The notes: generated from the sequence alone by a model not told the origin. DNA of 64,000 bases from Terrimicrobium sacchariphilum (GCF_001613545.1 NZ_BDCO01000002.1:3100001-3164000); one strand, 5' to 3'; shown: positions 11,915 to 63,721, counted from the first letter of the stretch. Numbers and translations: made by a program.

Positions 11915-12065
11915 GGTGCTCGGGGATTTCGGAATTTTCCTTTGAGCCGAGCTTCTATCCCGCCTCCCCACTCGTCTAGACGCTTTTTGCGCTTCTCAAG
12001 AATGGCGAATCTCGTCCGTGCAAGATCATACACACCGACCCCTATTTTCTCGGGAAACCGGATGG

Positions 12066-12413
12066 TCATTTTTGATATTCGACGCCTGACCCCCACTTCA
12101 CGTTTTCCCCGCTTTCCAGTAAGATAGAATTTCGAAGACTGCATAAAAGTGAAACTAGATTTCTTGTTCGCTTTTTGATTCCAAATTTTCTTCCGAGGCC
12201 CATGTATTCGGCTTCGATCTGGATTAAGTAATCCTGAATTTTTTCCGGCTCCGCTTGTTCCAGAAGCATCGTAAATACCCGAGGGAGGTACGATTGATAC
12301 TCATCTTTAGGCCAATCTCGACGGCTGATTCCGATCGGATCCCAAATGTAAAAGAGAACTTCGTCGACTCGGCGGTAAAGCTGCATTTGATCGTCAGGAA
12401 GGCGTTGTCCCAT
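12066..12413 (-). CDS. Hypothetical protein with a DEVL-Y-WDPIGIS motif
   Basis: A 115-residue cytosolic protein with an N-terminal helix and the signature RRVDEVLFYIWDPIGIS, then a helical region ending at MGLGRKFG. This motif recurs in small hypothetical proteins, some near polymorphic-toxin loci; the function is unproven. The ATG at 12413 has a GGAG site 9 bases upstream and is preferred over the one at 12497. The last residues (KWGSGVEYQK and stop) are encoded by a copy of the interspersed repeat, so the natural C-terminus has probably been replaced. Confidence 0.6.
   Translation of the reverse strand: MGQRLPDDQMQLYRRVDEVLFYIWDPIGISRRDWPKDEYQSYLPRVFTMLLEQAEPEKIQDYLIQIEAEYMGLGRKFGIKKRTRNLVSLLCSLRNSILLESGENVKWGSGVEYQK
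12069..12108 (+). repeat. Interspersed REP-like repeat, copy 1
   Basis: Contains TTTTGATATTCGACGCCTGA followed by CCCCACTTCACGTT. It matches copy 2 at 12999-13036 with a few mismatches and shares the TGACCCC core with the AATGGCTGACC copies further right. It overlaps the 3' end of the 12066-12413 gene. Confidence 0.65.
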
Positions 12414-12700
12414 ATTTCTTATCTCCGGATCTAAATTGGATTGCCTATTGCCGCCCGCTTTCGCCGAGGAAATCAAGGCGGAAAGCAGATGCCGCATGAA
12501 TACTCATTCAGGCCGCGGGCTTCCAGAGGGTTTAAAGAACCATGCAATTCGCCTGGCCGGAAAAGGTGAACTCTTACGTATCGCCCCCACCTTCAGCTCG
12601 ATCCAGCAACTTTCATTCTTCAACGCACAGACGAGACAGCCGCGTTGAGGAAACCCCTTGTTCCCACACCATTGGGGCACAATGTACACTTCAGAGGTAC

Positions 12701-12964
12701 ATGAGCGCAGAATCTTTTAAACGGGGTCTGGCGGCAGCCGCGAAGGTTTTCACGAGCCAATCGCGAGAGTACAAGGTCGGCGATGAGGTGCTCGCTTGTA
12801 CCTTCTGCCGGGGGAAGTCCTTCGAGCATCGCAGAGTGCTCCTAAACACCGCGGCAGCGACACTCGTGAACCTGGATTGGGCGAACGCACAAGCCTCCGC
12901 TATGGTATGCGATCAATGCTCCCACATCATGTGGTTCTTCAAGGAACCCACTCGAGTCCTGTGA
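12701..12964 (+). CDS. Small zinc-ribbon protein
   Basis: An 87-residue protein. Two CxxC pairs (C33/C36 and C70/C73: ACTFCRG and VCDQCSH) frame a strand-rich core (RRVLLNTAAATLVNLDWANAQA), the layout of small nucleic-acid-binding zinc ribbons such as PF09855. The ATG at 12701 is preferred; the frame extends upstream to 12542 through sequence with no conserved look. It is probably a cytosolic nucleic-acid or protein-binding factor, standing alone between repeat copies. Confidence 0.6.
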   Translation: MSAESFKRGLAAAAKVFTSQSREYKVGDEVLACTFCRGKSFEHRRVLLNTAAATLVNLDWANAQASAMVCDQCSHIMWFFKEPTRVL

Positions 12965-12998
12965 GATAGAAACGGAAAACGCCCAGATCCGAGTCCCC

Positions 12999-13072
12999 TA
13001 TTTTGATATTTGACTCCCGCCCCAACTTCTCACGTTCAGGCTCTCAAAATATCAATATTAAATGGCTGACCC
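12999..13072 (+). repeat. Interspersed REP-like repeat, copy 2, with palindromic tail
   Basis: Starts TATTTTGATATTTGACTCCC and continues into TCAAAATATCAATATTAAAT and GGCTGACCC. TTGATATTT-GA and TC-AAAATATCAA form an imperfect dyad of about 11 bp arms. The AATGGCTGACC end is the same motif found at 13293, 14428, 14540 and 15784. Confidence 0.7.
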
Positions 13073-13303
13073 GAATGGCATTAAGATAAGGCCGTTTTGA
13101 GAGTGTTGCGCGTGATTGGAGAGCGTTGCAGGTATTGAACCGGCTTGCTCCCGACCGATTCCCTCGTTCCCAAACAATCTACGGGATAATCGAGGGCCTG
13201 ACCGATGGGCACGAAACCTGTTTTCAGGAGCTTTTCGAGCAGTTTTCGGGTTGATTTCTCCCTCGAAAAGACGCCTTATCTTAATGCCATTCATGGCTGA
13301 CCC
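13062..13303. mobile_element. MITE-like inverted-repeat element with 11-bp target duplication
   Basis: A perfect 20-bp inverted repeat (13073-13092 and 13273-13292; core GGCATTAAGATAAGG) bounds 220 bp. The word ATGGCTGACCC lies immediately outside each arm, at 13062-13072 and 13293-13303, in direct orientation. This is the pattern left by insertion of a non-autonomous element into the repeat motif with duplication of the target. No transposase is encoded; the overlapping short frames on both strands look spurious. Confidence 0.7.
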
Positions 13304-13340
13304 CATTTCCTCGCTCGTGCATGATTATGCACACTGAACC

Positions 13341-14246
13341 CTACTTTCCGGTTGAATCAATTACTCTTTTTCTCCTACCGATAGAAGAAGAAATTACCCC
13401 CGGAATCAGAACTAAAAGAGAAATCGCCACGCCAATAAGTGCATATGGCCCAATATTGTAAGCAAAAAAGTATAAAGCTGTACCGGTATCAGTTGGACGA
13501 AGAAATCTTACTTGCCCAGCACCATTTTCGTAGGTGAGTCGAATATCATCAGTCCGATCTTCGTAATCAAAGAACCTCAAATCCCTAGTCCAAGCGGTTA
13601 CAAACACCTTATCTCCTGTTCGTATTTCACCGATTTCCAGCGGCTTTTTTCCAACGACAGTTTCTGCCGGATATCCAGATCTCTCAATTATTGCGGCCCC
13701 AAGAGAATTTATCGCCAGCCGTACTTCCTTCGCATTTGCTGTTCCTTCATTTGATATAACAATACTCAAAATTTTTTTTGGACTATCATAGGCAGAAAGA
13801 TCACGCACGAAATGTATTGCTTCGTTCGCTTGCCGAGAAGCGACCCGGGCCGCATCCCTTAAATCCTCAGCACTCGCATGATTTTGACCGACCTTTTTAT
13901 TGACGAAGGCCTCATAAAAGGCTTTCTGCGATAAGCCCGAGAATGGAGAGTCTTGTTCTTCCAATTCTTGAGTCAGCGCTATAGGTACAAGGTACGGTCC
14001 TGATTGAATCTGGGAAAACGGCGGGGGAAGCTTCAAATCCGCAATCTCAACCCGAGCAATAAGCTTATCCTTGGCGGGTCCGTAGGTTTCAAAGCACCAG
14101 GTTATCCCTTGCAAGAGGACGATACCCGCCGAAATCCATCCCACGAATTTGGCAACAATTTTCAGCGGTGATACCGGTTCAACAGCGGAAGTCGGCGACT
14201 CTGCCACCGGAGACGCCGGGGCAACGGAAGAATTCGGCTTGGACAT
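13341..14246 (-). CDS. Two-TM membrane protein of unknown function
   Basis: A 301-residue protein. A Pro/Ser/Val-rich cytosolic N-terminus (1-30) precedes a first TM (about 33-50). An extracytoplasmic region of about 200 residues follows, including a beta-rich CARDB-like stretch (KKILSIVISNEGTANAKEVRLAI). A second TM lies near 262-285 with a short basic tail. Codon and base use are clearly AT-richer than the flanking core genes, suggesting transfer. It is preceded and followed by AATGGCTGACC repeats in opposing orientations. The function is not recognised; proximity to the TIR gene makes a defence or signalling role possible but unproven. Confidence 0.65.
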   Translation of the reverse strand: MSKPNSSVAPASPVAESPTSAVEPVSPLKIVAKFVGWISAGIVLLQGITWCFETYGPAKDKLIARVEIADLKLPPPFSQIQSGPYLVPIALTQELEEQDSPFSGLSQKAFYEAFVNKKVGQNHASAEDLRDAARVASRQANEAIHFVRDLSAYDSPKKILSIVISNEGTANAKEVRLAINSLGAAIIERSGYPAETVVGKKPLEIGEIRTGDKVFVTAWTRDLRFFDYEDRTDDIRLTYENGAGQVRFLRPTDTGTALYFFAYNIGPYALIGVAISLLVLIPGVISSSIGRRKRVIDSTGK

Positions 14247-14571
14247 GCGAGATAAATGAATCCCCCAGATGTATCAGATCAAGAATTATATCCTCTCCTT
14301 GAGGCAGGAATAGCAGCACGGAATAAGGACGTCTCTGCAATTTACATATCTCGAATCATATTGCACATGCGACTTGGAGAAGCGGAGACCAGAATGATGA
14401 GATCACTTCATGAATGAGAGGAATCAGGGTCAGCCATTTAATGTTAATATTAGCTTACGGATACAGACCGCGAAGGGATTGGGACAGCAGATCAAATGAT
14501 AGTGAAAACGGAGAAACCGATCATCAAACTATCAACAATAAATGGCTGACCACCCCCGGTAGCGGAAAAGA
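14247..14571. other. AT-rich intergenic region with repeats
   Basis: No gene is seen. It holds the divergent-arm repeat pair at 14428-14551 and presumably the promoter of the 13341-14246 gene. The base composition is notably AT-rich compared with the rest of the window. Confidence 0.5.
14428..14551. repeat. Inverted pair of AATGGCTGACC repeats (about 124 bp)
   Basis: The left arm GGTCAGCCATTTAATGTT (minus orientation) and right arm TATCAACAATAAATGGCTGACC (plus orientation) are inverted copies with about 20 of 24 matches. They form the junction between the two-TM protein gene and the TIR gene. Confidence 0.65.
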
Positions 14572-15618
14572 TCATATCAAATGTTGATCCCAAAACCGAC
14601 GGTTCGTGAAGGAAAGCTCATGATCGTATTCCGATCGGTAGTAGTCGCAGAATTCATCCGACGCTCGCTTAGTAAAGTCCTTCAGTGCCCGCAACGCCTC
14701 GATAGCCCTGTACACTTTCGGATCTTCATCCTCCGCTTTCACGCCGTCATGGCCCTCCCGCAGATATCCGTCCTCGATTGCTCGTCGAATATCACGATTC
14801 CGACCATCCGTATCGCTGTAGCCAAACTCCGGCCACGGCATTTCCTCATCTCGAAAGTAATAATATAACGCGGCCCTAGCCTCGCCGGGGAGCTCCGCCA
14901 TTAAATCGGTCGCTTTGTCGACAAGGCTCTCAAACTCGTCGCGATCTTCCAAGTCTTCCGCGAGAACTTCCTGAACATCAGCCTTATCCTTCAACTTAAT
15001 GATCTTCTCGACCTGGCGTTCTAGAACCTCAATTCGATCTTCGGACTGCCCCAAGGCGCCCTTCGCTTCTTCGTAATTTCTTTCGAGCGCAGCATACTTC
15101 TTTGGGTCCACTTTGGCCGGTGGGACATAGGTATTTTGATATTCCTCAAACCATTTCAAGAATTCATCCCGGCGCTTTTCCCACATTGCAACTGCTTTCC
15201 GCGTTGCTCCCATCACTTCCACCAATTCTTCGTAAAACTGATTGAGGTCCTCTTTGACATTTAGTCGCAAGATTTGGGTTCCGGTGAGCACCCCTTTGAT
15301 TTCTTCAAACGTCAGTGGCGGCGCTAAGAGCGGGAAAGCACGGTGAGCCATACTCCAAGATGCACCTAATTCGCAGAGGCAAAACTCGCTTGCATAGTAA
15401 TCTGGAGTCAGTAAAAGGATAACAGCCTTAGGCTCTTCGATTTGCGATCGAATAAATTCTACAAAGTTGGCTCCAGCTGGAATCCCCATTCCTTCCAACG
15501 ATGAACAGAATATCTCTCTGTCGGAGATTCCTATTCCAGTCTCGATAAGAACAACCAGCCGATCCGCGAGATCCTTGTTTGCAACGGCATGACTGAGGAA
15601 AAGAGGACGAGATTTCAT
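14572..15618 (-). CDS. TIR-domain protein with coiled coil and C-terminal helical domain
   Basis: A 348-residue cytosolic protein. The N-terminal TIR domain (about 1-135) begins RPLFLSHAVANKDLADRLV and carries the putative catalytic glutamate E83 in CLCELGASW, as in TIR NADases. A charged coiled coil follows (about 175-215), then a helical C-terminal domain rich in acidic residues, unrecognised and possibly the sensor. Bacterial TIR proteins of this build commonly act in anti-phage NAD-depleting systems or signalling; that role is inferred. No Thoeris, CBASS or STING partner is adjacent. AT-rich base use and flanking repeats suggest acquisition. Confidence 0.8.
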   Translation of the reverse strand: MKSRPLFLSHAVANKDLADRLVVLIETGIGISDREIFCSSLEGMGIPAGANFVEFIRSQIEEPKAVILLLTPDYYASEFCLCELGASWSMAHRAFPLLAPPLTFEEIKGVLTGTQILRLNVKEDLNQFYEELVEVMGATRKAVAMWEKRRDEFLKWFEEYQNTYVPPAKVDPKKYAALERNYEEAKGALGQSEDRIEVLERQVEKIIKLKDKADVQEVLAEDLEDRDEFESLVDKATDLMAELPGEARAALYYYFRDEEMPWPEFGYSDTDGRNRDIRRAIEDGYLREGHDGVKAEDEDPKVYRAIEALRALKDFTKRASDEFCDYYRSEYDHELSFTNRRFWDQHLI

Positions 15619-15779
15619 CGTTTCACAGAGGTAACGCCGTGATTATCAACGGCAAGATTAATTGTCTATTATTTCGTTTATGGAACCACACATCTTTACT
15701 CAGAACTTCATCAAAATTTGCCTTGGTTCGCTCGCGAAGTGCTTCAAGTAACTCGCCTTTTCGGAAGAGCGGGCAAAAT

Positions 15780-15805
15780 GGATTAGCCATTTAATACTGA
15801 TATTT
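15780..15805 (-). repeat. AATGGCTGACC-type repeat, distal copy
   Basis: Reads GGATTAGCCATTTAATACTG on the plus strand, so the core is in minus orientation with one change (TAATCC for TGACCC). It lies upstream of the TIR gene and closes the repeat-bearing stretch. Confidence 0.55.
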
Positions 15806-15917
15806 CGAGGATCTGTTTCCGCGCTCTTGCTGTCAAATTCGTACCTGAAGTACACGGCCAACCATCTCTGCCCATTGATCTACCTCTTCATTTCTCTATC
15901 CGATTCCGCGAGCCCCC

Positions 15918-33928: not shown

Positions 33929-35596
33929 ATGTCCGCAACGCTCGCCTCCCTGCGCATCCGCAATCTCGCGCTCGTCGAGGATCTCACCTGGGAACCTTCA
34001 CCGGGCTTCATCGCCATCACGGGCGAGACCGGCGCGGGAAAATCCGTGATCCTCGGCGCGCTAACCCTGCTCCTGGGGGACCGCGCGGACAAGGGGGTGA
34101 TTCGCACCGGTGCCGATGCCGCCACGGTCGAGGCGGTCTTTGAAAACGCCACCGACCCGCGCCTCGCCACCGCGCTGGAGGACCACGGCGCGGAACCCGT
34201 CGAGGAAGGTCGCTTGATCGTGAAGCGCACGGTGCCCGCCGAGGGCGCGGGGAAGCAATTCGTCAACGGCTCGCCCTGCACGCTCGCCCTCCTGCGCGCG
34301 CTGGGCGACCTGCTCGTCGACCTGCACGGGCCGCACGACCACCAGAGCCTTTTCTCCCGCGACCAGCAGACGCGGCTGCTCGACAGCTTCGCCGGGAGCA
34401 CGGCGCTGCGGGAGGAGTTCACCCTCGCCCGACGCCAGCTCCTCAAGCTCCGCGAGGAAAAGGACGCCATTCTCCAGGGCGAGCAGGCCCTCGCCCGCGA
34501 GATAGACCTGCTTTCCCATCAAGTCGCCGAGATCGACCAGGCGCAGCTCGCGCCCGGCGAGGAGGAAACGCTTCTCTCGCGCCAGAAGGCGGCGGCGAAC
34601 TCCCAGCGCATCGGCGAGATTTGCACCCAGCTCGAGGCCGGCGTGAACGAATCGGACGATTCCCTCACCTCGCGGCTCGGCGAGCTTTCGCGCCTCGCGC
34701 GGGAGCTATCGCGCCTCGATCCCGGTTCGGAAGAGATCGCCCGCTCGTGCGACGAGGTCTTCACGGCGGCGGATTCCCTCGCCCGCGCCATCGCCACCTA
34801 CTCCGCCTCGCTGGAGGACGGCCCGGCTAATCTCGACGAGATCGAGTCCCGGCTCGACGTGCTCCAGACCCTGAAACGCAAGTACGGCCACACGGTTGAG
34901 GCGGTGCTGGACTTTGCCGCGCAGGCCGCCGCCCGGCTGGAGGAACTCACGGGCCGCGCGGAACGCCGCGACACGCTCGACGCCGACATCGCCGCCGCCG
35001 AGCGCGCCATGCTCGACCTCGGCCACAAGCTCACGACGAAACGCACCGCCAGCGCGAAGAAGCTCGGCGACAAGGTGAAGACGGGGCTAAAGGATCTCGG
35101 GTTTGCGAAGGCGGAATTTTCCATCGCCCTGGAAAAGCTCGCCGACCCCGGCCCGCACGGCTGCGAGCAGGCGGAGTTTCAATTCTCCCCCAACCCCGGC
35201 GAGCCCGCGCGTCCGCTCCGCGCCATCGCCTCCAGCGGCGAAATTTCCCGCGTGATGCTCGCGCTCAAGGGCGCGTTGGCTGATCAGGACGACGTGCCGG
35301 TGCTGGTCTTTGACGAAATCGACGCCAACGTCGGCGGAGAAATCGCCGCCAAGGTCGGCCTGAAGATGAAGGAACTCGGCGCCGCCCGCCAGGTCCTCTG
35401 CATCACCCACCTCCCGCAGGTCGCGGCCCGCGCGGCGGAGCACTTCATCGTCACCAAGGAAGTCGAAAGCGGCCGCACCCGCACCCTCCTCGACCAGGCC
35501 ACCGGAGCCAAACGCGAGCAGGAGCTGGCGCGCATGCTCGGCGGCCAGTCGGACTCCGCGAGGGCGCATGCCAAGGCGCTGCTGGCGGGGAAGTGA
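33929..35596 (+). CDS. recN: DNA repair protein RecN
   Basis: SMC-like ATPase acting early in double-strand-break repair. The 555 residues are typical of RecN. The N-terminal Walker A GETGAGKSVI is followed by VDLHGPHDHQSLF and the long coiled-coil middle (about 160-400). Signature and Walker B regions (RAIASSGEISRVMLALK and VPVLVFDEIDANVGGEIA) and the C-terminal LCITHLPQVAA complete it. The ATG at 33929 places the ATP-binding head at the usual distance from the N-terminus. It is divergent from the MBL hydrolase, with a very short shared promoter region. Confidence 0.96.
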   Translation: MSATLASLRIRNLALVEDLTWEPSPGFIAITGETGAGKSVILGALTLLLGDRADKGVIRTGADAATVEAVFENATDPRLATALEDHGAEPVEEGRLIVKRTVPAEGAGKQFVNGSPCTLALLRALGDLLVDLHGPHDHQSLFSRDQQTRLLDSFAGSTALREEFTLARRQLLKLREEKDAILQGEQALAREIDLLSHQVAEIDQAQLAPGEEETLLSRQKAAANSQRIGEICTQLEAGVNESDDSLTSRLGELSRLARELSRLDPGSEEIARSCDEVFTAADSLARAIATYSASLEDGPANLDEIESRLDVLQTLKRKYGHTVEAVLDFAAQAAARLEELTGRAERRDTLDADIAAAERAMLDLGHKLTTKRTASAKKLGDKVKTGLKDLGFAKAEFSIALEKLADPGPHGCEQAEFQFSPNPGEPARPLRAIASSGEISRVMLALKGALADQDDVPVLVFDEIDANVGGEIAAKVGLKMKELGAARQVLCITHLPQVAARAAEHFIVTKEVESGRTRTLLDQATGAKREQELARMLGGQSDSARAHAKALLAGK

Positions 35597-35628
35597 GTGC
35601 TTACGCTTAAGCAATCGCCAATAGCTCC

Positions 35629-36225
35629 GTGTCGAAAAAGGACACAATGAACCGCAAGGTCGACTTATACATTGCCCAAGCGAAGTCGTGGCGTGAGGAG
35701 ACAGAGGCTTTGCGGGAGATTGCGCTGGGTTGGGGATTGACGGAAGAACTGAAGTGGGGAAAGCCGTGTTACTCCTTTGCGGGGAGCAATGTGGCGATCA
35801 TTCAGGGATTTAAGGGGTATTGTGCGCTGCTGTTTTGCAAGGGAGCGCTGCTGAAGGATGTTGCGGGAATATTGGTGCGGCCGGGAGAGAATACGCAGGC
35901 GGCGCGGCAGGCGCGGTTTATGAGTGCGCGGGAGATCGCGGAGAAGGCGGATTTGCTGAAGGCTTATCTGTGCGAGGCCATCGCAGTGGAGAAGGCTGGG
36001 ACGCAGGTGCGGTACAAGGAGACGGCTGATTTTGCGGTGCCGGAGGAACTGACTGCGATGATGAAGAAGGAACCTGCTTTAAAGGAGGCTTTCGCGGCGC
36101 TCACGCCCGGGCGGCAGCGCGGATACCTGCTGTATTTCGCCGGGGCGAAACAATCGGCCACACGGACGGCGCGGATCGAGAAGTGCCGGGACCAGATCCT
36201 CGCGGGCAAGGGATTGCGGGACTAA
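35629..36225 (+). CDS. YdeI/OmpD-associated family protein (DUF1801 plus OmdA)
   Basis: A 198-residue cytosolic protein with an N-terminal DUF1801 domain (about 10-120: LREIALGWGLTEELKWGKPCYSF ... GYCALLFCKGALLKD) and a C-terminal OmdA-like segment (ELTAMMKKEPALKEAFAALTPGRQRGYLLYFAGAKQSATRTARIEKC). Members of this group are stress-related proteins of unclear activity. The GTG at 35629 or the ATG at 35647 may be the start. Three more genes follow on the same strand with short gaps or one-base overlaps. Confidence 0.83.
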   Translation: MSKKDTMNRKVDLYIAQAKSWREETEALREIALGWGLTEELKWGKPCYSFAGSNVAIIQGFKGYCALLFCKGALLKDVAGILVRPGENTQAARQARFMSAREIAEKADLLKAYLCEAIAVEKAGTQVRYKETADFAVPEELTAMMKKEPALKEAFAALTPGRQRGYLLYFAGAKQSATRTARIEKCRDQILAGKGLRD

Positions 36226-36717: not shown

Positions 36718-37295
36718 TGGCTGATCCGAAACCGCGAGCACTGGTTCCCCGCGCGGTCGCGCCTCGAGTCGCGACGCCCCGCGCGGTCGCGTCTCGCGCT
36801 GTCCCTCCGCGGTTCACGAGGAATCGCAAGCCGCTGCGCTCCGGCCAGAAAGGACCGAGGCGACCGGAACGGCCGACGCTTTCGTGGCTGGTGGCGGGGC
36901 TGATGCTGTGTGTGTTGATGGGGTTGCCGGGGCTGGCGGCGATCAAGCTTTCGCAGCATGTGCCGGGCTATGGGCTGCTGGGGTATTTTGTCGTGGTGTC
37001 GGTGCTGGCGTTTATTTTCTGCGCCTCGGACAAGCGGCAGGCAAAGGACCGCCAGTGGCGGACTCCGGAAAACTTCCTTCACTTCTTTGAGCTGATCGGG
37101 GGCTGGCCGGGGTCGTTCGCGGCGCAGCATCGCTTCCGGCACAAGGTGAAGAAGACGGGCTATCAGTTCGTCTTTTGGCTGATCGTGGCAGGATATCAAC
37201 TCGTGGCGCTCGACTATCTGGCCGACTGGCGGCTTTCGCTGGGGCTGAGGGACGGGATTGCCCGGGGAGTTTCCGCATTGAATTCCGAAGGCTAA
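36717..37295 (+). CDS. DUF1294 membrane protein with a basic repeat N-terminus
   Basis: A 192-residue protein. A proline/arginine/valine-rich N-terminus with repeated (P/S)RAV units (about residues 7-32) precedes a DUF1294 domain (about 55-180). TM segments are near 57-76, 85-105 and the C-terminal part, and the family pattern FIFCASDKRQAKDRQWRTPENFLHFFELIGGWPGSF is present. In other bacteria DUF1294 is often fused to a cold-shock domain; here that domain is absent and the basic repeat takes its place. The encoding DNA is a tandem repeat. One-base overlaps join it to both neighbours. Confidence 0.75.
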   Translation: MADPKPRALVPRAVAPRVATPRAVASRAVPPRFTRNRKPLRSGQKGPRRPERPTLSWLVAGLMLCVLMGLPGLAAIKLSQHVPGYGLLGYFVVVSVLAFIFCASDKRQAKDRQWRTPENFLHFFELIGGWPGSFAAQHRFRHKVKKTGYQFVFWLIVAGYQLVALDYLADWRLSLGLRDGIARGVSALNSEG

Positions 37296-37666
37296 TGAAA
37301 CCGCCGCCACGGAGAAAGTTTCGCCCCCTGCTGGCGACCGGAATCGCGGTGCTCCATTTCGCGATCTTTGTCGTCGTCGCTTGGTTCGTACTCATTGGAT
37401 CGTTAACCGGCTCGGGAGCGGGCGGACCGTTTTACCACGGCCCGGGGATGGCTGAAATCATCGGGATCACATTAGCGCCGACCTTGCTTATTCCCCTTCT
37501 GTTCGGCATCAAACCCTTGAGCATTCAACTCCTGTTCCTCACCGTTGCCTCGTCGAGCGCTCTGTATGGAGTTGCGATCTCTCTGCTGGTTTCCTATATC
37601 CTGAGTCGCCCGACGCCAACGAACCTCACGCGAAATGAGCCGGGAATACACGGCGACCCTTATTAG
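37295..37666 (+). CDS. Small membrane protein, unknown
   Basis: A 123-residue protein with a basic N-terminus and three TM segments (about 12-35, 52-72 and 80-103). It starts at the TAATG junction with the DUF1294 gene, so translational coupling is likely. No family is recognised. Confidence 0.6.
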   Translation: MKPPPRRKFRPLLATGIAVLHFAIFVVVAWFVLIGSLTGSGAGGPFYHGPGMAEIIGITLAPTLLIPLLFGIKPLSIQLLFLTVASSSALYGVAISLLVSYILSRPTPTNLTRNEPGIHGDPY

Positions 37667-37687
37667 CTTGGCGCACGTCAACCCAAC

Positions 37688-38170
37688 CTAGCGCTGTCGG
37701 TGGTGGCGGAGAAACTCCGCGATCCCGAAAGCGGCGCCGCTGTCGAGTTTCCCGTCTGAACTGGAGAAATCGAAGACCATTTCACGGGCGCATTTCATCG
37801 TGGCGGAAAGCTGTCCGCCCTGAACACCTTGGGCGAGGAGAAAGGCCTGAAGGCCATCGAGAAGATCGGGGTTCCTGGCAGACTCCTGGCAAAAGCGCCA
37901 TTTCAGATCGCTTGCGCGGTTACCCTGAATCACGCGGCCCAACGGGATGTCGGGCATTTTCCGCCATTGCTTGCGCTTGATGCCCAGGAGGTCCTGTTCC
38001 ATGGCGTCGACATCCGCCGACCGGAGGGCCTGATGTTCGCTTTTGCGATAGCAGCGATTCAGCCAGCGCTTGCGGAAGCGGATGCCCTTGCGCGAGGCCT
38101 TGTCGTTTTGCCCGAAGCAATTTCGACGATCCTTAAGCAAAGAGAGGCGTTTTTTCTCCTGTGGTGTCAT
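37688..38170 (-). CDS. Hypothetical protein
   Basis: A 160-residue cytosolic protein with a very basic N-terminal third (MTPQEKKRLSLLKDRRNCFG, then RFRKRWLNRCYRKSEHQA), a helical centre (DAMEQDLLGIKRKQWRKM) and a C-terminal helical segment (DLLDGLQAFLLAQGVQGG). No family is recognised. It is convergent with the small membrane protein gene at 37295 and stands alone. Confidence 0.5.
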   Translation of the reverse strand: MTPQEKKRLSLLKDRRNCFGQNDKASRKGIRFRKRWLNRCYRKSEHQALRSADVDAMEQDLLGIKRKQWRKMPDIPLGRVIQGNRASDLKWRFCQESARNPDLLDGLQAFLLAQGVQGGQLSATMKCAREMVFDFSSSDGKLDSGAAFGIAEFLRHHRQR

Positions 38171-38239
38171 TCGAGGGGGGAGCTTATATGAATCGTCAGA
38201 AAAAGAACGTGTGATTCACATACTTTACTCACCATTCGA

Positions 38240-38491
38240 TTATGTCAGGGCTTTCCTGATCCACTGGACACCGACGATGCAGAGAACGGGGCCGATGCCA
38301 AATGCCCCGATAAGCGGCGCGGGGCGAAACTCCGGCAGGCGGTGGATGAGGTGATTGTACAGCACCCAGAGAATGATGGCGGCTCCGATGAGGCAACTCG
38401 TCGCGCCCATCACAAGGTAAACAGCCCGCCGGATCATGAGCCGAAAGTTTAGCGGCGACATCTGGGCAAAGACAAGGTTGCCGCGCCTCAC
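38240..38491 (-). CDS. Small membrane protein (two TM)
   Basis: An 83-residue protein with two hydrophobic helices (about residues 23-43 and 57-76). It overlaps the 38488-38865 gene by 4 bp and so probably belongs to the phosphorelay operon. No family is recognised. Confidence 0.55.
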   Translation of the reverse strand: MRRGNLVFAQMSPLNFRLMIRRAVYLVMGATSCLIGAAIILWVLYNHLIHRLPEFRPAPLIGAFGIGPVLCIVGVQWIRKALT

Positions 38492-38865
38492 TTCCGCTGG
38501 GTCTTTGACGCTGGGATAGCAGACGTAACTGGCGGTTCGGCCTGGAGGCGGGTGAGGTAGTCGTGGACGGAGTCGGTGTCGTAGTCGGAGAGGCCGTGGG
38601 TGTCGGCGACGGCGCGGACGATGATGTCGACGGGTTCGGTGATGGATCGCCAGTCAAAGGCGGTGCGAAGAATCATGCCCTGGCCGGTGCGATAGGATTC
38701 GATGACATTGCAGCAGATGGAGGAGACGACCAGTTCGCGGGCGACGGTGCGCCAGCGACCGGGGCCGTGGCGTTTTTCAAACTCCTGCACGAAGGTACGC
38801 GGGGATGGCGGCGCATCGCCGGGTTCCGTAGGGATGTGCGGGGGATGCGTGGTGTCTTCATTCAT
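38488..38865 (-). CDS. Hypothetical protein in the phosphorelay operon
   Basis: A 125-residue protein: a disordered, acidic/proline-rich N-terminus (1-22), a conserved-looking helical core (FVQEFEKRHGPGRWRTVARELVVSSICCNVIESYR), and a C-terminal region with AFDWRSITEPVDIIVRAVAD and LSDYDTDSVHDYLTRL. There are 2 bp between it and the NarL-type regulator gene, so co-transcription is likely. The function is unknown; it may be a histidine-phosphotransfer-like or adaptor protein, but no HPt histidine motif is obvious. Confidence 0.55.
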   Translation of the reverse strand: MNEDTTHPPHIPTEPGDAPPSPRTFVQEFEKRHGPGRWRTVARELVVSSICCNVIESYRTGQGMILRTAFDWRSITEPVDIIVRAVADTHGLSDYDTDSVHDYLTRLQAEPPVTSAIPASKTQRK

Positions 38866-42401: not shown

Positions 42402-43123
42402 TGGTTTTGACCCTCACCGGGTGTAGTTCGGTGGGCGTTTATCAGCTGCATCAACACAAACCAGCGGCAAGAACAGCGCCGAGGACGATCTTTATCCAGG
42501 CCTACACAATCCAGCCGGGAGCGTTGCAACTAGGTGATCGCCCTGCGGCAGAGACCGCGAGGCTTGGACGCGATATCCAGACATCGCTTGCATCCCGCAC
42601 TTCTCGCGAGGTCAGCCGCCATGCGGCTCCGGCGATGGTTGCCGCAGGGGGTACTATTCCGGCTCCGGGAAACTGGTTGATTCGCGGTGAGATCGTCCAG
42701 GTGGATCAAGGCAGCCGTGCGAAACGCGCGGTAGTGGGACTGGGAGCCGGACGGACACACTTCCGCACGAATGTCTCGGTATTTGCGGTGGAGAGTGGCG
42801 GCATGCGCAGGATTCTGAGTTTCCGCACGCGAGGGAGTTCAGGGATGGAACCAGGAGCAGCTTTGGGCGTAGCCACCGGTGGGGCTAGTCTCGTTGGCAC
42901 AGCAGCGGGCACGCTGGCAGGAAGCCTGCCTGGCGTAAGCTCGGACGTGGATCGCACCGCGTATGAGACGGCAGCGGTGCTCTCGACCTATCTGGCCAAC
43001 CAAGGGTTGCTGAGCAGATCCCGCCAGCAGGTGACACCAAACTTCGCCGGTCAGGTACCGTCGGGCTTTAACGTCCGGCGCGCATTGCCCACTCCGGTAC
43101 GCGACGCCATGGATTCGCACTGA
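42371..43123 (+). CDS. DUF4410-like lipoprotein
   Basis: A 250-residue exported protein. The lipobox LTGC (cysteine near 18) follows a hydrophobic core. The mature region begins with a linker, then APRTIFIQAYTIQPGALQL and the family-like NWLIRGEIVQVDQGSRAKRAVVGLGAGRTHFRTNVSVF, with a glycine/alanine-rich loop (GAALGVATGGASLVGTAAGTLAG). DUF4410 proteins are envelope lipoproteins of unknown role. It stands alone. Confidence 0.7.
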   Translation: MRYFLSLASVMVLTLTGCSSVGVYQLHQHKPAARTAPRTIFIQAYTIQPGALQLGDRPAAETARLGRDIQTSLASRTSREVSRHAAPAMVAAGGTIPAPGNWLIRGEIVQVDQGSRAKRAVVGLGAGRTHFRTNVSVFAVESGGMRRILSFRTRGSSGMEPGAALGVATGGASLVGTAAGTLAGSLPGVSSDVDRTAYETAAVLSTYLANQGLLSRSRQQVTPNFAGQVPSGFNVRRALPTPVRDAMDSH

Positions 43124-43296
43124 AATATCCGCGGCAAATCGCCTGCCGCTCGATTCAGTAGGCCACCTCTGGATGGCCAGGAACACCCTGGCCGCCGAGG
43201 CAGCCCGCATTCCCTCGAAGTGCCAGATATATTAATATCCGGGAGGGAATCAGACTTGTATTTTGGACGCAAACCAACCTAGAAAGCGCGGCGTCG

Positions 43297-44001
43297 ATGG
43301 TGAGTATCATAAAAATCGTACAGGGAGCCGCTGGCTCGTTGAGGGCAGGCATGCAAAGCAGTCGCTACCAGCTAATGGCATGCGCGATAGCTGCGCTCAT
43401 CGGCGCGGGCGGAATGAGCAAGGCATCTGCCGCTCCCGTCATTTGGTCGGTCGATGTGGATCTCCCCGAGTCCGGATACCTGTACTTCAACATCTTTACC
43501 GGATACGCCAGCACTCTGCCGGACCCAGGGTACACATATACCTACTCGATCCATAACTTCGCCTACAATACCACGCCGCCAGTCATCCAGACGGTCCTGA
43601 ACTCCAACAATCCCGCAGACAAGGTGGTGGTAAATGGACCGGAATGCGTGAGCTTTGGCGAAGGCAGCGAAATCAACGGGAGCGAGTTTTACTGGAGCGG
43701 CGGAAATCTCGCGACCTACGATCCATCGCGGAATCCACCGTATATCTCGAATTTTACGCCAGAGTGGACCTCGTACGTCGGGCTGAAATTCAGCGATGCC
43801 GAGAGCAATGTCTATTATGGCTGGGCCAGCTTCATCGTACAGGGAGATAACACCCTGGTGACGCTGACGGGCTTCGGCTACGAATCGACACCCGGCGCTC
43901 CCGCGACAGTGGGGGCGGTACCGGAACCGTCGACGGTCGGGCTACTCGCCCTCGCCGGTGCGGGGCTGACCCTCGCGTGGCGGTCAAGACGGCGAGCCTG
44001 A
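43297..44001 (+). CDS. PEP-CTERM secreted protein
   Basis: A 234-residue secreted protein. The signal peptide (hydrophobic about 27-43) ends near SKASA-APV. The mature part is beta-rich with many Tyr, Asn and Ser residues. The C-terminal sorting signal is AVPEPSTVGLLALAGAGLTL then AWRSRRRA. The start is the ATG at 43297, or the ATG at 43351, which also has a purine-rich site. It is convergent with the CDF transporter gene; the function is unknown. Confidence 0.83.
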   Translation: MVSIIKIVQGAAGSLRAGMQSSRYQLMACAIAALIGAGGMSKASAAPVIWSVDVDLPESGYLYFNIFTGYASTLPDPGYTYTYSIHNFAYNTTPPVIQTVLNSNNPADKVVVNGPECVSFGEGSEINGSEFYWSGGNLATYDPSRNPPYISNFTPEWTSYVGLKFSDAESNVYYGWASFIVQGDNTLVTLTGFGYESTPGAPATVGAVPEPSTVGLLALAGAGLTLAWRSRRRA

Positions 44002-44023
44002 CGGAGAAACTTGCCTGCGGGCC

Positions 44024-62697: not shown

Positions 62698-63055
62698 GGG
62701 GGGCTAAAAACGATGGACCCCATCCCAAACCTGGCGGCAGGCAACGCGCCCACGGGAGCGGCATTCCAGCCACGATGCGCCAGGCCGAGAGGAATCGGGC
62801 AGCCCGCATGGCTCCTTTGCACAGAGGTTAACGAAGTCAGCGCCCAAGGACTCCGTTAACTTTTCCCGGATCACTAATAAAGAGAAGTTCACGCGGACAA
62901 CGTCGCGACCGCAGCTTCCGCTCTCTCGTCCAGAGCCGCCGCACGCGATTTCCGGCCAGCATGTAACTGTTACACCAGCAGGCAATTGCTTGCGACCAGA
63001 TGACATGAGAAGCTAAAGCACCATCGACCCCAACATTGTCGCTCCCTCGCCAATC
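62698..63055. other. Intergenic region with hairpin
   Basis: No gene is seen. It contains the dyad at 62827-62860 and, further right, the presumed promoter of the prepilin-like gene. Confidence 0.5.
62827..62860 (+). terminator. Probable terminator after the AraC gene
   Basis: GTTAACGAAGTC and GACTCCGTTAAC form a 12-bp stem with one mismatch and a 10-nt loop, followed by TTTTCCC. The T-run is short. Confidence 0.5.
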
Positions 63056-63721
63056 ATGAGCCTCCCCAGACAATCGACCTTTGGCTTCTTGAAGGCAAAT
63101 CCTGTTCGCGGCCAAATCATCGCACCGACTGCCTGCCGGGCCTTCACACTGATGGAAATTCTCGTGACGGTCGCCATTATCGGCATTCTGGCCACGCTGC
63201 TTTTTCCGACTGTCAGCCGGATCAAGGATAATGCGAACCTGACAAAATGCAGCAGCAACCTGCGGCAGTGGGGGATCGCTTATCAGTTGTACATGGCGGA
63301 CCATGATGGCCTTTTGCCGCAGCAGGAAAGAGTCCTCAGCGACCCTAACACCCATTGGCAGAACCTGATCGCTCCCTACGTGATGGGCGGCACAAAAACC
63401 TACTTAAGCATCGATCTGCGTACCAAGTTCCGCTGCCCAAACGACAAGACAACGGGCATCGTCTATGGGTGCAGCTACTACCTCAGCCCGCCAAATTATG
63501 CCCAGGCCCCGGCCAAGCTGATCAATCTGAACAAGAAGCTCTCTGATTTCATTCTGATGGCGGAAAATTACACTGGTGAATTCTGGAACACCGAGCGGCG
63601 GCTCGAAGGAGCAGAAAATCCGGATACCTCGCCCGCGGAGGCTGTGCTCAGGAATGTATCTTCCTGCTGCGCGAGGCGGACGCCGGGCGGTGCTCGACGG
63701 CGTGTTGCTGCCGGACAGTGA
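63056..63721 (+). CDS. Prepilin-type protein with an atypical C-terminus
   Basis: A 221-residue pseudopilin-like protein. The prepilin leader is RAFTLMEILVTVAIIGILAT with E5 after the cleavage site, followed by the usual CSSNLRQWGIAYQLYMADHDG segment. The C-terminus lacks the H-X9-DG motif; the last 35 residues (AEAVLRNVSSCCARRTPGGA then RRRVAAGQ) look like out-of-frame sequence and overlap the 3' end of the LacI gene on the other strand by 74 bp. Truncation by rearrangement or a sequence frameshift near 63640 is possible. Confidence 0.7.
   Translation: MSLPRQSTFGFLKANPVRGQIIAPTACRAFTLMEILVTVAIIGILATLLFPTVSRIKDNANLTKCSSNLRQWGIAYQLYMADHDGLLPQQERVLSDPNTHWQNLIAPYVMGGTKTYLSIDLRTKFRCPNDKTTGIVYGCSYYLSPPNYAQAPAKLINLNKKLSDFILMAENYTGEFWNTERRLEGAENPDTSPAEAVLRNVSSCCARRTPGGARRRVAAGQ

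Follow-up and report, generated by a model that had tools for sequence, protein, structure and literature searches.

Do the short repeats that surround accessory genes in Terrimicrobium sacchariphilum mark the borders of exchangeable gene cassettes, or are they the ends of something else? The question is raised by positions 12019 to 15914 of a 64,000-nt stretch of this genome (the window), where copies of one short repeat family were originally predicted to bracket single genes, including one for a TIR-domain protein. The repeats are very probably the terminal inverted repeats (TIRs; "TIR-domain" refers to the protein domain) of three TIRYT-type families, decayed IS200/IS605-like elements alongside which accessory genes turn over. 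Transposase genes of this kind were described as TIRYT, and the elements as TIRtrons, with GGGGWSAS ends and repeats in dimers or clusters (Di Nocera et al., 2013; PMC3733652). This gives an identity to repeats that resemble cassette borders, adds TIRYT families with mini-elements from Verrucomicrobia (the relatives are labelled Spartobacteria and Chthoniobacter), and adds a family of miniature inverted-repeat transposable elements (MITEs) that is specific for TIRYT tips.

A scan with the full 24-25-nt TIR consensus finds eight copies, every one inside 12019-15803, and none elsewhere in the 64 kb or in shuffled sequence. They fall into three families with a common tip, GGGGTCAG: type 1 at 13049, 14426, 14529 and 15779, type 2 at 12019 and 13318, and type 3 at 12070 and 13001. 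All copies listed in the original prediction do exist at their positions and in their orientations. However, what was read as one family is three related ones, the type-2 copies at 12019 and 13318 were overlooked, and the plus copy at 13293 is no repeat in its own right but the right-hand half of a target-site duplication of 11 bp. At one mismatch, the core of the repeat has six matches in the window against 1.1 expected (at least six in 0 of 100 shuffles), four of them in 13061-14551 and two elsewhere. The exact core, AATGGCTGACC, has five matches in the whole 4.75-Mb genome (G000), with three at the locus and two within unrelated coding sequence; the latter two are chance matches. A dispersed repetitive extragenic palindromic (REP) family in this genome is ruled out, as the core is confined to the locus. 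Copy numbers are also low across the genus: at up to three mismatches, each type has at most six copies per genome in G000 and its two congeners, G008 and G009. Hairpin folding of single TIRs is modest for type 2 and absent for types 1 and 3.

The identity of the type-1 repeats is revealed by relatives, in which outward-facing copies of this TIR border Y1 transposase genes, one immediately ahead of the ATG and one immediately behind the stop codon. Across the family, a 14-mer at one mismatch has matches in 11 of 26 genomes, some of them chance ones in coding sequence, and the full 25-mer is present in 8 of 384 genomes of the class, seven of these in the same family. Intact elements consist of outward TIRs around a Y1 gene of approximately 320-350 codons; one in G009 (L173 6168-7274, L-numbers denoting fetched loci) encodes a 327-aa protein. 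An intact type-1 transposase gene of G009 is also located at L043 2236-3219 (minus strand). In one relative, the likeness of similar copies extends through CTGACCCC and a T-run and then breaks off, so that the outer end of the element can be placed there. Among the intact Y1 genes found in the family, the majority have GGGGTCAG 51-68 bp upstream of the start codon. Several carry an inverted GGGGTCAG either directly at the stop codon or no more than about 60 bp from the end of the gene, and CTGACCCC often provides the stop codon in these cases. Inverted repeats of the GGGGWSAS type are found at both ends of the Y1 gene in several loci and at the upstream end only in others. At L116, L119, L120, L132 and L135, the Y1 frame stops at a TGA inside the downstream TIR (CTGACCCC), and the element end therefore provides the stop codon.

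Internally deleted mini-elements of 128-129, 150 and 206 bp are found at four places. Those at L249, L191 and L178 resemble the mini-element of the window, a gene-less unit of 128 bp at 14426-14553 with outward-facing type-1 TIRs at both ends. One of its ends has a 62-bp match to the 3′ end of the intact element of G009, and the other has a weaker match, of 34 bp, to the 5′ end. A single strand of this mini-element is predicted to fold as a long hairpin (z -5.08 vs shuffles). The type-1 remnant at 15779-15825 (minus strand) comprises a TIR with some 22 bp of element body and represents the 3′ end of an element, with 92% identity to the 3′ end of the G009 type-1 element over 15775-15825. Exact-pattern matches inspected in viral contigs have no TIR context, and viral carriage was rejected on this ground; the inspected matches outside Verrucomicrobia do not have the ATATCAATATT part and look like chance.

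All 13 aligned Y1 proteins of relatives contain PF01797 and an HUH motif (NHYH or NHFH) together with Y-[IV]-HLNP, and the alignment features a conserved T-x-x-x-x-x-W-[IL] region. The Y1 protein matches the NCBIfam model REP_Tyr_transpos under the model cut-off, and its structure model has the E. coli REP-associated transposase 4er8 as best match (Z 16.0, 2.8 Å, 154 residues). Five C-terminal helices are predicted at 256-326 (block pLDDT mostly 83-96) and hint at a helix-turn-helix extension, although no helix-turn-helix match to the Y1 proteins was found in Pfam. Together with the flanked Y1 genes of relatives, the NCBIfam match and the 4er8 fold bear out the proposal that the repeats are REP-like and belong to REP-associated-type Y1 transposases. 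The search for such a transposase that was proposed with it had a divided outcome: a cognate exists in relatives, but none was found among the Y1 matches of the own genome. No intact transposase gene lies within 12019-15803. The single Y1 gene of G000, which may encode a domesticated Y1 protein, shares 49% identity with the type-1 transposase across 241 aa, and no GGGGTCAG TIR was found beside it. Its site (L006 / L223, G000:C2:884312; L227, L225) is conserved in both congeners, with 87-91% identical DNA.

These elements share with TIRYT a Y1/HUH gene between GGGGWSAS inverted repeats, the occurrence of the repeats as solitary, paired and clustered copies, and an extended C-terminus with a predicted helical region. 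Most TIRYT belong to Y1 subclass 2.1, which has a C-terminal helix-turn-helix domain (Quentin et al., 2018; PMC6006769). The TIRYT of Di Nocera et al. are known from other taxa, Acidobacteria being the sharpest case, with moderately abundant repeats, whereas here there are very few copies in a few plastic intervals. Furthermore, a link to gene turnover is seen here and is not reported in the available sections of the TIRYT papers (PMC3733652, PMC6006769). With the RAYT/REPIN systems, such as E. coli TnpAREP and the Pseudomonas REPINs, they have in common a REP-type Y1 fold, mini-elements of 128-206 bp with inverted ends, and, for the mini-element of the window, a predicted hairpin. They differ in the tip, GGGGTCAG rather than GTAG/GTGG, and in having only a few copies per genome where those systems have hundreds. 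No pertinent paper connecting RAYT/REPIN elements with defence islands appeared among those listed by a literature search.

One of the apparent repeat copies is explained by a MITE of 220 bp at 13073-13292. It interrupts the tip of a type-1 TIR (13049-13072, plus strand), the right end of a lost element, and is flanked by a perfect 11-bp duplication, ATGGCTGACCC, at 13062-13072 and 13293-13303. The right-hand duplicate is what was listed as the copy at 13293. The terminal repeats of the MITE, GAATGGCATTAAGATAAGG, are 19 bp long, and we take the MITE to be IS4-like, judging from the resemblance of its ends and the length of the target duplication. Related copies are present in the own genome and in the congeners, and four of eight paired copies have perfect 11-bp duplications. 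Among 30 distinct ends of this family, 26 adjoin an 11-mer like GGGTCNGNNNN (GGGTCNG-like), compared with 1% of random 11-mers, which indicates that the MITE targets sites resembling TIR tips. Insertion sequences that target REPs are known, for example ISRm22 (IS4 family) and ISPpu9 (IS110) (Tobes and Pareja, 2006; PMC1525189). As in those cases, insertion is specific for a repeat and yields a target duplication of fixed length; here, however, the site that is hit is the GGGTCNG tip of a TIRYT end, and the insertion sequence family is assigned from resemblance only. An autonomous partner was not found in the single partial copy examined (L284). Several G009 contigs terminate in ends of the MITE family, which suggests an unassembled autonomous copy. 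Ends of the GAATGGCATTAAGATAAGG family also occur at L137, L138, L140, L142, L145 and L072.

The gene content of the locus differs among the congeners while the flanks are conserved, in agreement with what was proposed for it. The non-syntenic segment, 12053-15914, lies between a YCII-like gene on the left and a 329-aa gene at 15916 on the right, and except for the MITE it is not conserved in either congener. The corresponding site in G008 (L214 6847-12044) is occupied by two unknown genes, a gene for a type IIG-like restriction-modification protein and a toxin-antitoxin pair of PIN/Phd-like type. G009 has its left anchor at the end of one contig and its right anchor close to the beginning of another, on which a further MITE and a DUF6036 nucleotidyltransferase gene are located. 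The 348-aa TIR-domain protein gene of the window (14572-15618, minus strand; TIR_2, PADLOC spbK model) has no close relative in either congener and only two distant relatives among the 384 class genomes (E below 1e-20). At a second locus, G009 has a 2.7-kb block between conserved genes, consisting of an element end, a gene, an intact element, further genes and an element end; its counterpart is 24 bp in G008 and 161 bp in G000. This block is a real gain or loss. A pair of occupied and empty sites, as sought by the original prediction, therefore exists, but the block has its boundaries within the bodies of the outer elements, at depths of 83 bp and 119 bp, and not at the repeats. Similarly, the right edge of the variable segment in the window is approximately 110 bp past the last TIR.

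Small IS200/IS605-like elements with a REP-associated-type HUH/Y1 transposase and GGGGTCAG ends would have entered intergenic sites many times over, in a few plastic intervals of the chromosome in this genus, and then decayed; at this locus, only ends and one mini-element are left. The MITE then landed in one TIR tip, its 11-bp duplication producing the extra copy. Accessory genes such as the TIR-domain gene and the 301-aa gene (13341-14246, minus strand; the two-transmembrane protein gene of the original prediction) turn over in the same interval. They probably arrive by ordinary horizontal transfer and recombination, and the elements would be passengers or, at most, occasional recombination points. 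The alternative first put forward, in which single genes are cassettes bounded by inward REP-like copies and exchanged as units, draws on the placement of genes between inward copies, seen for two genes of the locus and for the small genes next to the element in G009, and on the differing content of the locus among congeners. However, the mobile unit in relatives is the outward pair, with accessory genes outside it, and one of the proposed brackets, at 13293, is a target duplication. The orientation of neighbours is as expected if random: the 30 neighbouring TIR pairs within 5 kb comprise 16 tandem, 7 inward and 7 outward pairs, and the inward pairs are gaps between neighbouring outward-facing elements. 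The gain at the second locus has its ends within element bodies. A tblastx comparison of the variable segments identified shared accessory genes (L248 6591-7115 / L253 8582-9106; L248 8691-9059 / L216 5418-5786) and no common TIR borders for them. Exchange of single genes as cassettes is consequently very unlikely; outward transposon ends and a target duplication can mimic inward-facing brackets. An integron-like array, with the inverted repeat at 14426-14553 as an attC-like site, would accommodate three genes on one strand and an imperfect hairpin between two of them, but relatives have Y1 transposase genes between these very ends, and this idea can practically be dismissed.

Two observations weigh against the explanation by decayed TIRYT-type elements. 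Types 2 and 3 are linked to Y1 genes less fully than type 1, the link resting for type 2 on truncated Y1 starts in the G008 and G009 genomes alone and for type 3 only on its common tip and body sequence. In addition, at loci selected for carrying TIRs, 8 of 40 TIR copies are within 15 bp of the end of a synteny block, compared with 0.65 expected. Two of the eight reflect matches between elements, and two further pairs each count a single break once per genome, which leaves about four independent breaks near TIR tips; the excess exceeds what pure passengers require. It would fit a transposase that cuts solitary TIR tips and rejoins the tips of different copies, swapping the DNA on their outer sides. 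Such a process would also account for the left synteny anchor, which in three genomes spans the same type-2 TIR (12019-12042) and diverges just past its tip, for a type-3 TIR common to G000 and G009 beyond which the sequences become unrelated within about 7 bp, and for element bodies that end near the tip of a neighbouring TIR. A precedent exists in E. coli TnpAREP, which is reported to cleave and rejoin REPs (PMC6006769). Despite this, only about four independent breaks are involved, no cognate transposase is among the Y1 matches of the own genome, and insertion of a new element beside an older TIR followed by deletion could look alike. Tip shuffling is therefore a lead, though an unlikely one, and there is only a small chance that Y1 cleavage at GGGGTCAG with rejoining of tips swaps accessory or defence-type genes outside the elements in this genus. 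If it did, a few intervals seeded with TIRs would turn into hotspots of gene exchange in the absence of integrases and tRNA sites, and an excess of breaks that held in close strains would suggest a role for a REP-type transposase in the shuffling of accessory genes. Composite transposition, in which two neighbouring elements carry the intervening gene along, could explain why the G009 block is absent from G000 and G008. However, the outer elements of that block are truncated with their outer ends gone, and a second copy of a block was not found; this explanation is highly improbable.

Elsewhere in the window, 35589-36081, 37253-38530, 43122-44019 and 62701-63706 are unmatched in those portions of the two congeners that were fetched and contain no TIR copies. 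Apart from the TIR-domain gene, no accessory gene of the window has a PADLOC match, and the 301-aa protein has no match in Pfam, PADLOC or NCBIfam. Type-2 TIRs in tandem, several with a truncated Y1 start, are found at L226 4913-6356 and L177 5859-6064, and a 195-bp fragment common to G008 and G009 (L226, L177) is followed by different TIR types.

The type-2 TIR at 12019-12042 (plus strand) has its outer tip at 12042 and its body leftward. A type-3 remnant at 12053-12093 (plus strand), with its TIR at 12070-12093 and about 17 bp of body, abuts this tip and supplies the 3′ end and stop codon of a 143-aa open reading frame (ORF) of unknown family (12066-12497, minus strand). It is followed by a 140-aa ORF without a Pfam or PADLOC match (12542-12964, plus strand). 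Beyond the MITE, a second type-2 TIR with four mismatches (13318-13341, plus strand) provides, from its outer flank, the TAG stop of the 301-aa protein gene. The type-3 TIR at 13001-13024 (plus strand), also with four mismatches, lies 49 bp from the type-1 TIR that the MITE interrupts, and this type-3/type-1 tandem recurs in G008 at a spacing of 47 bp (L253 6815/6862).

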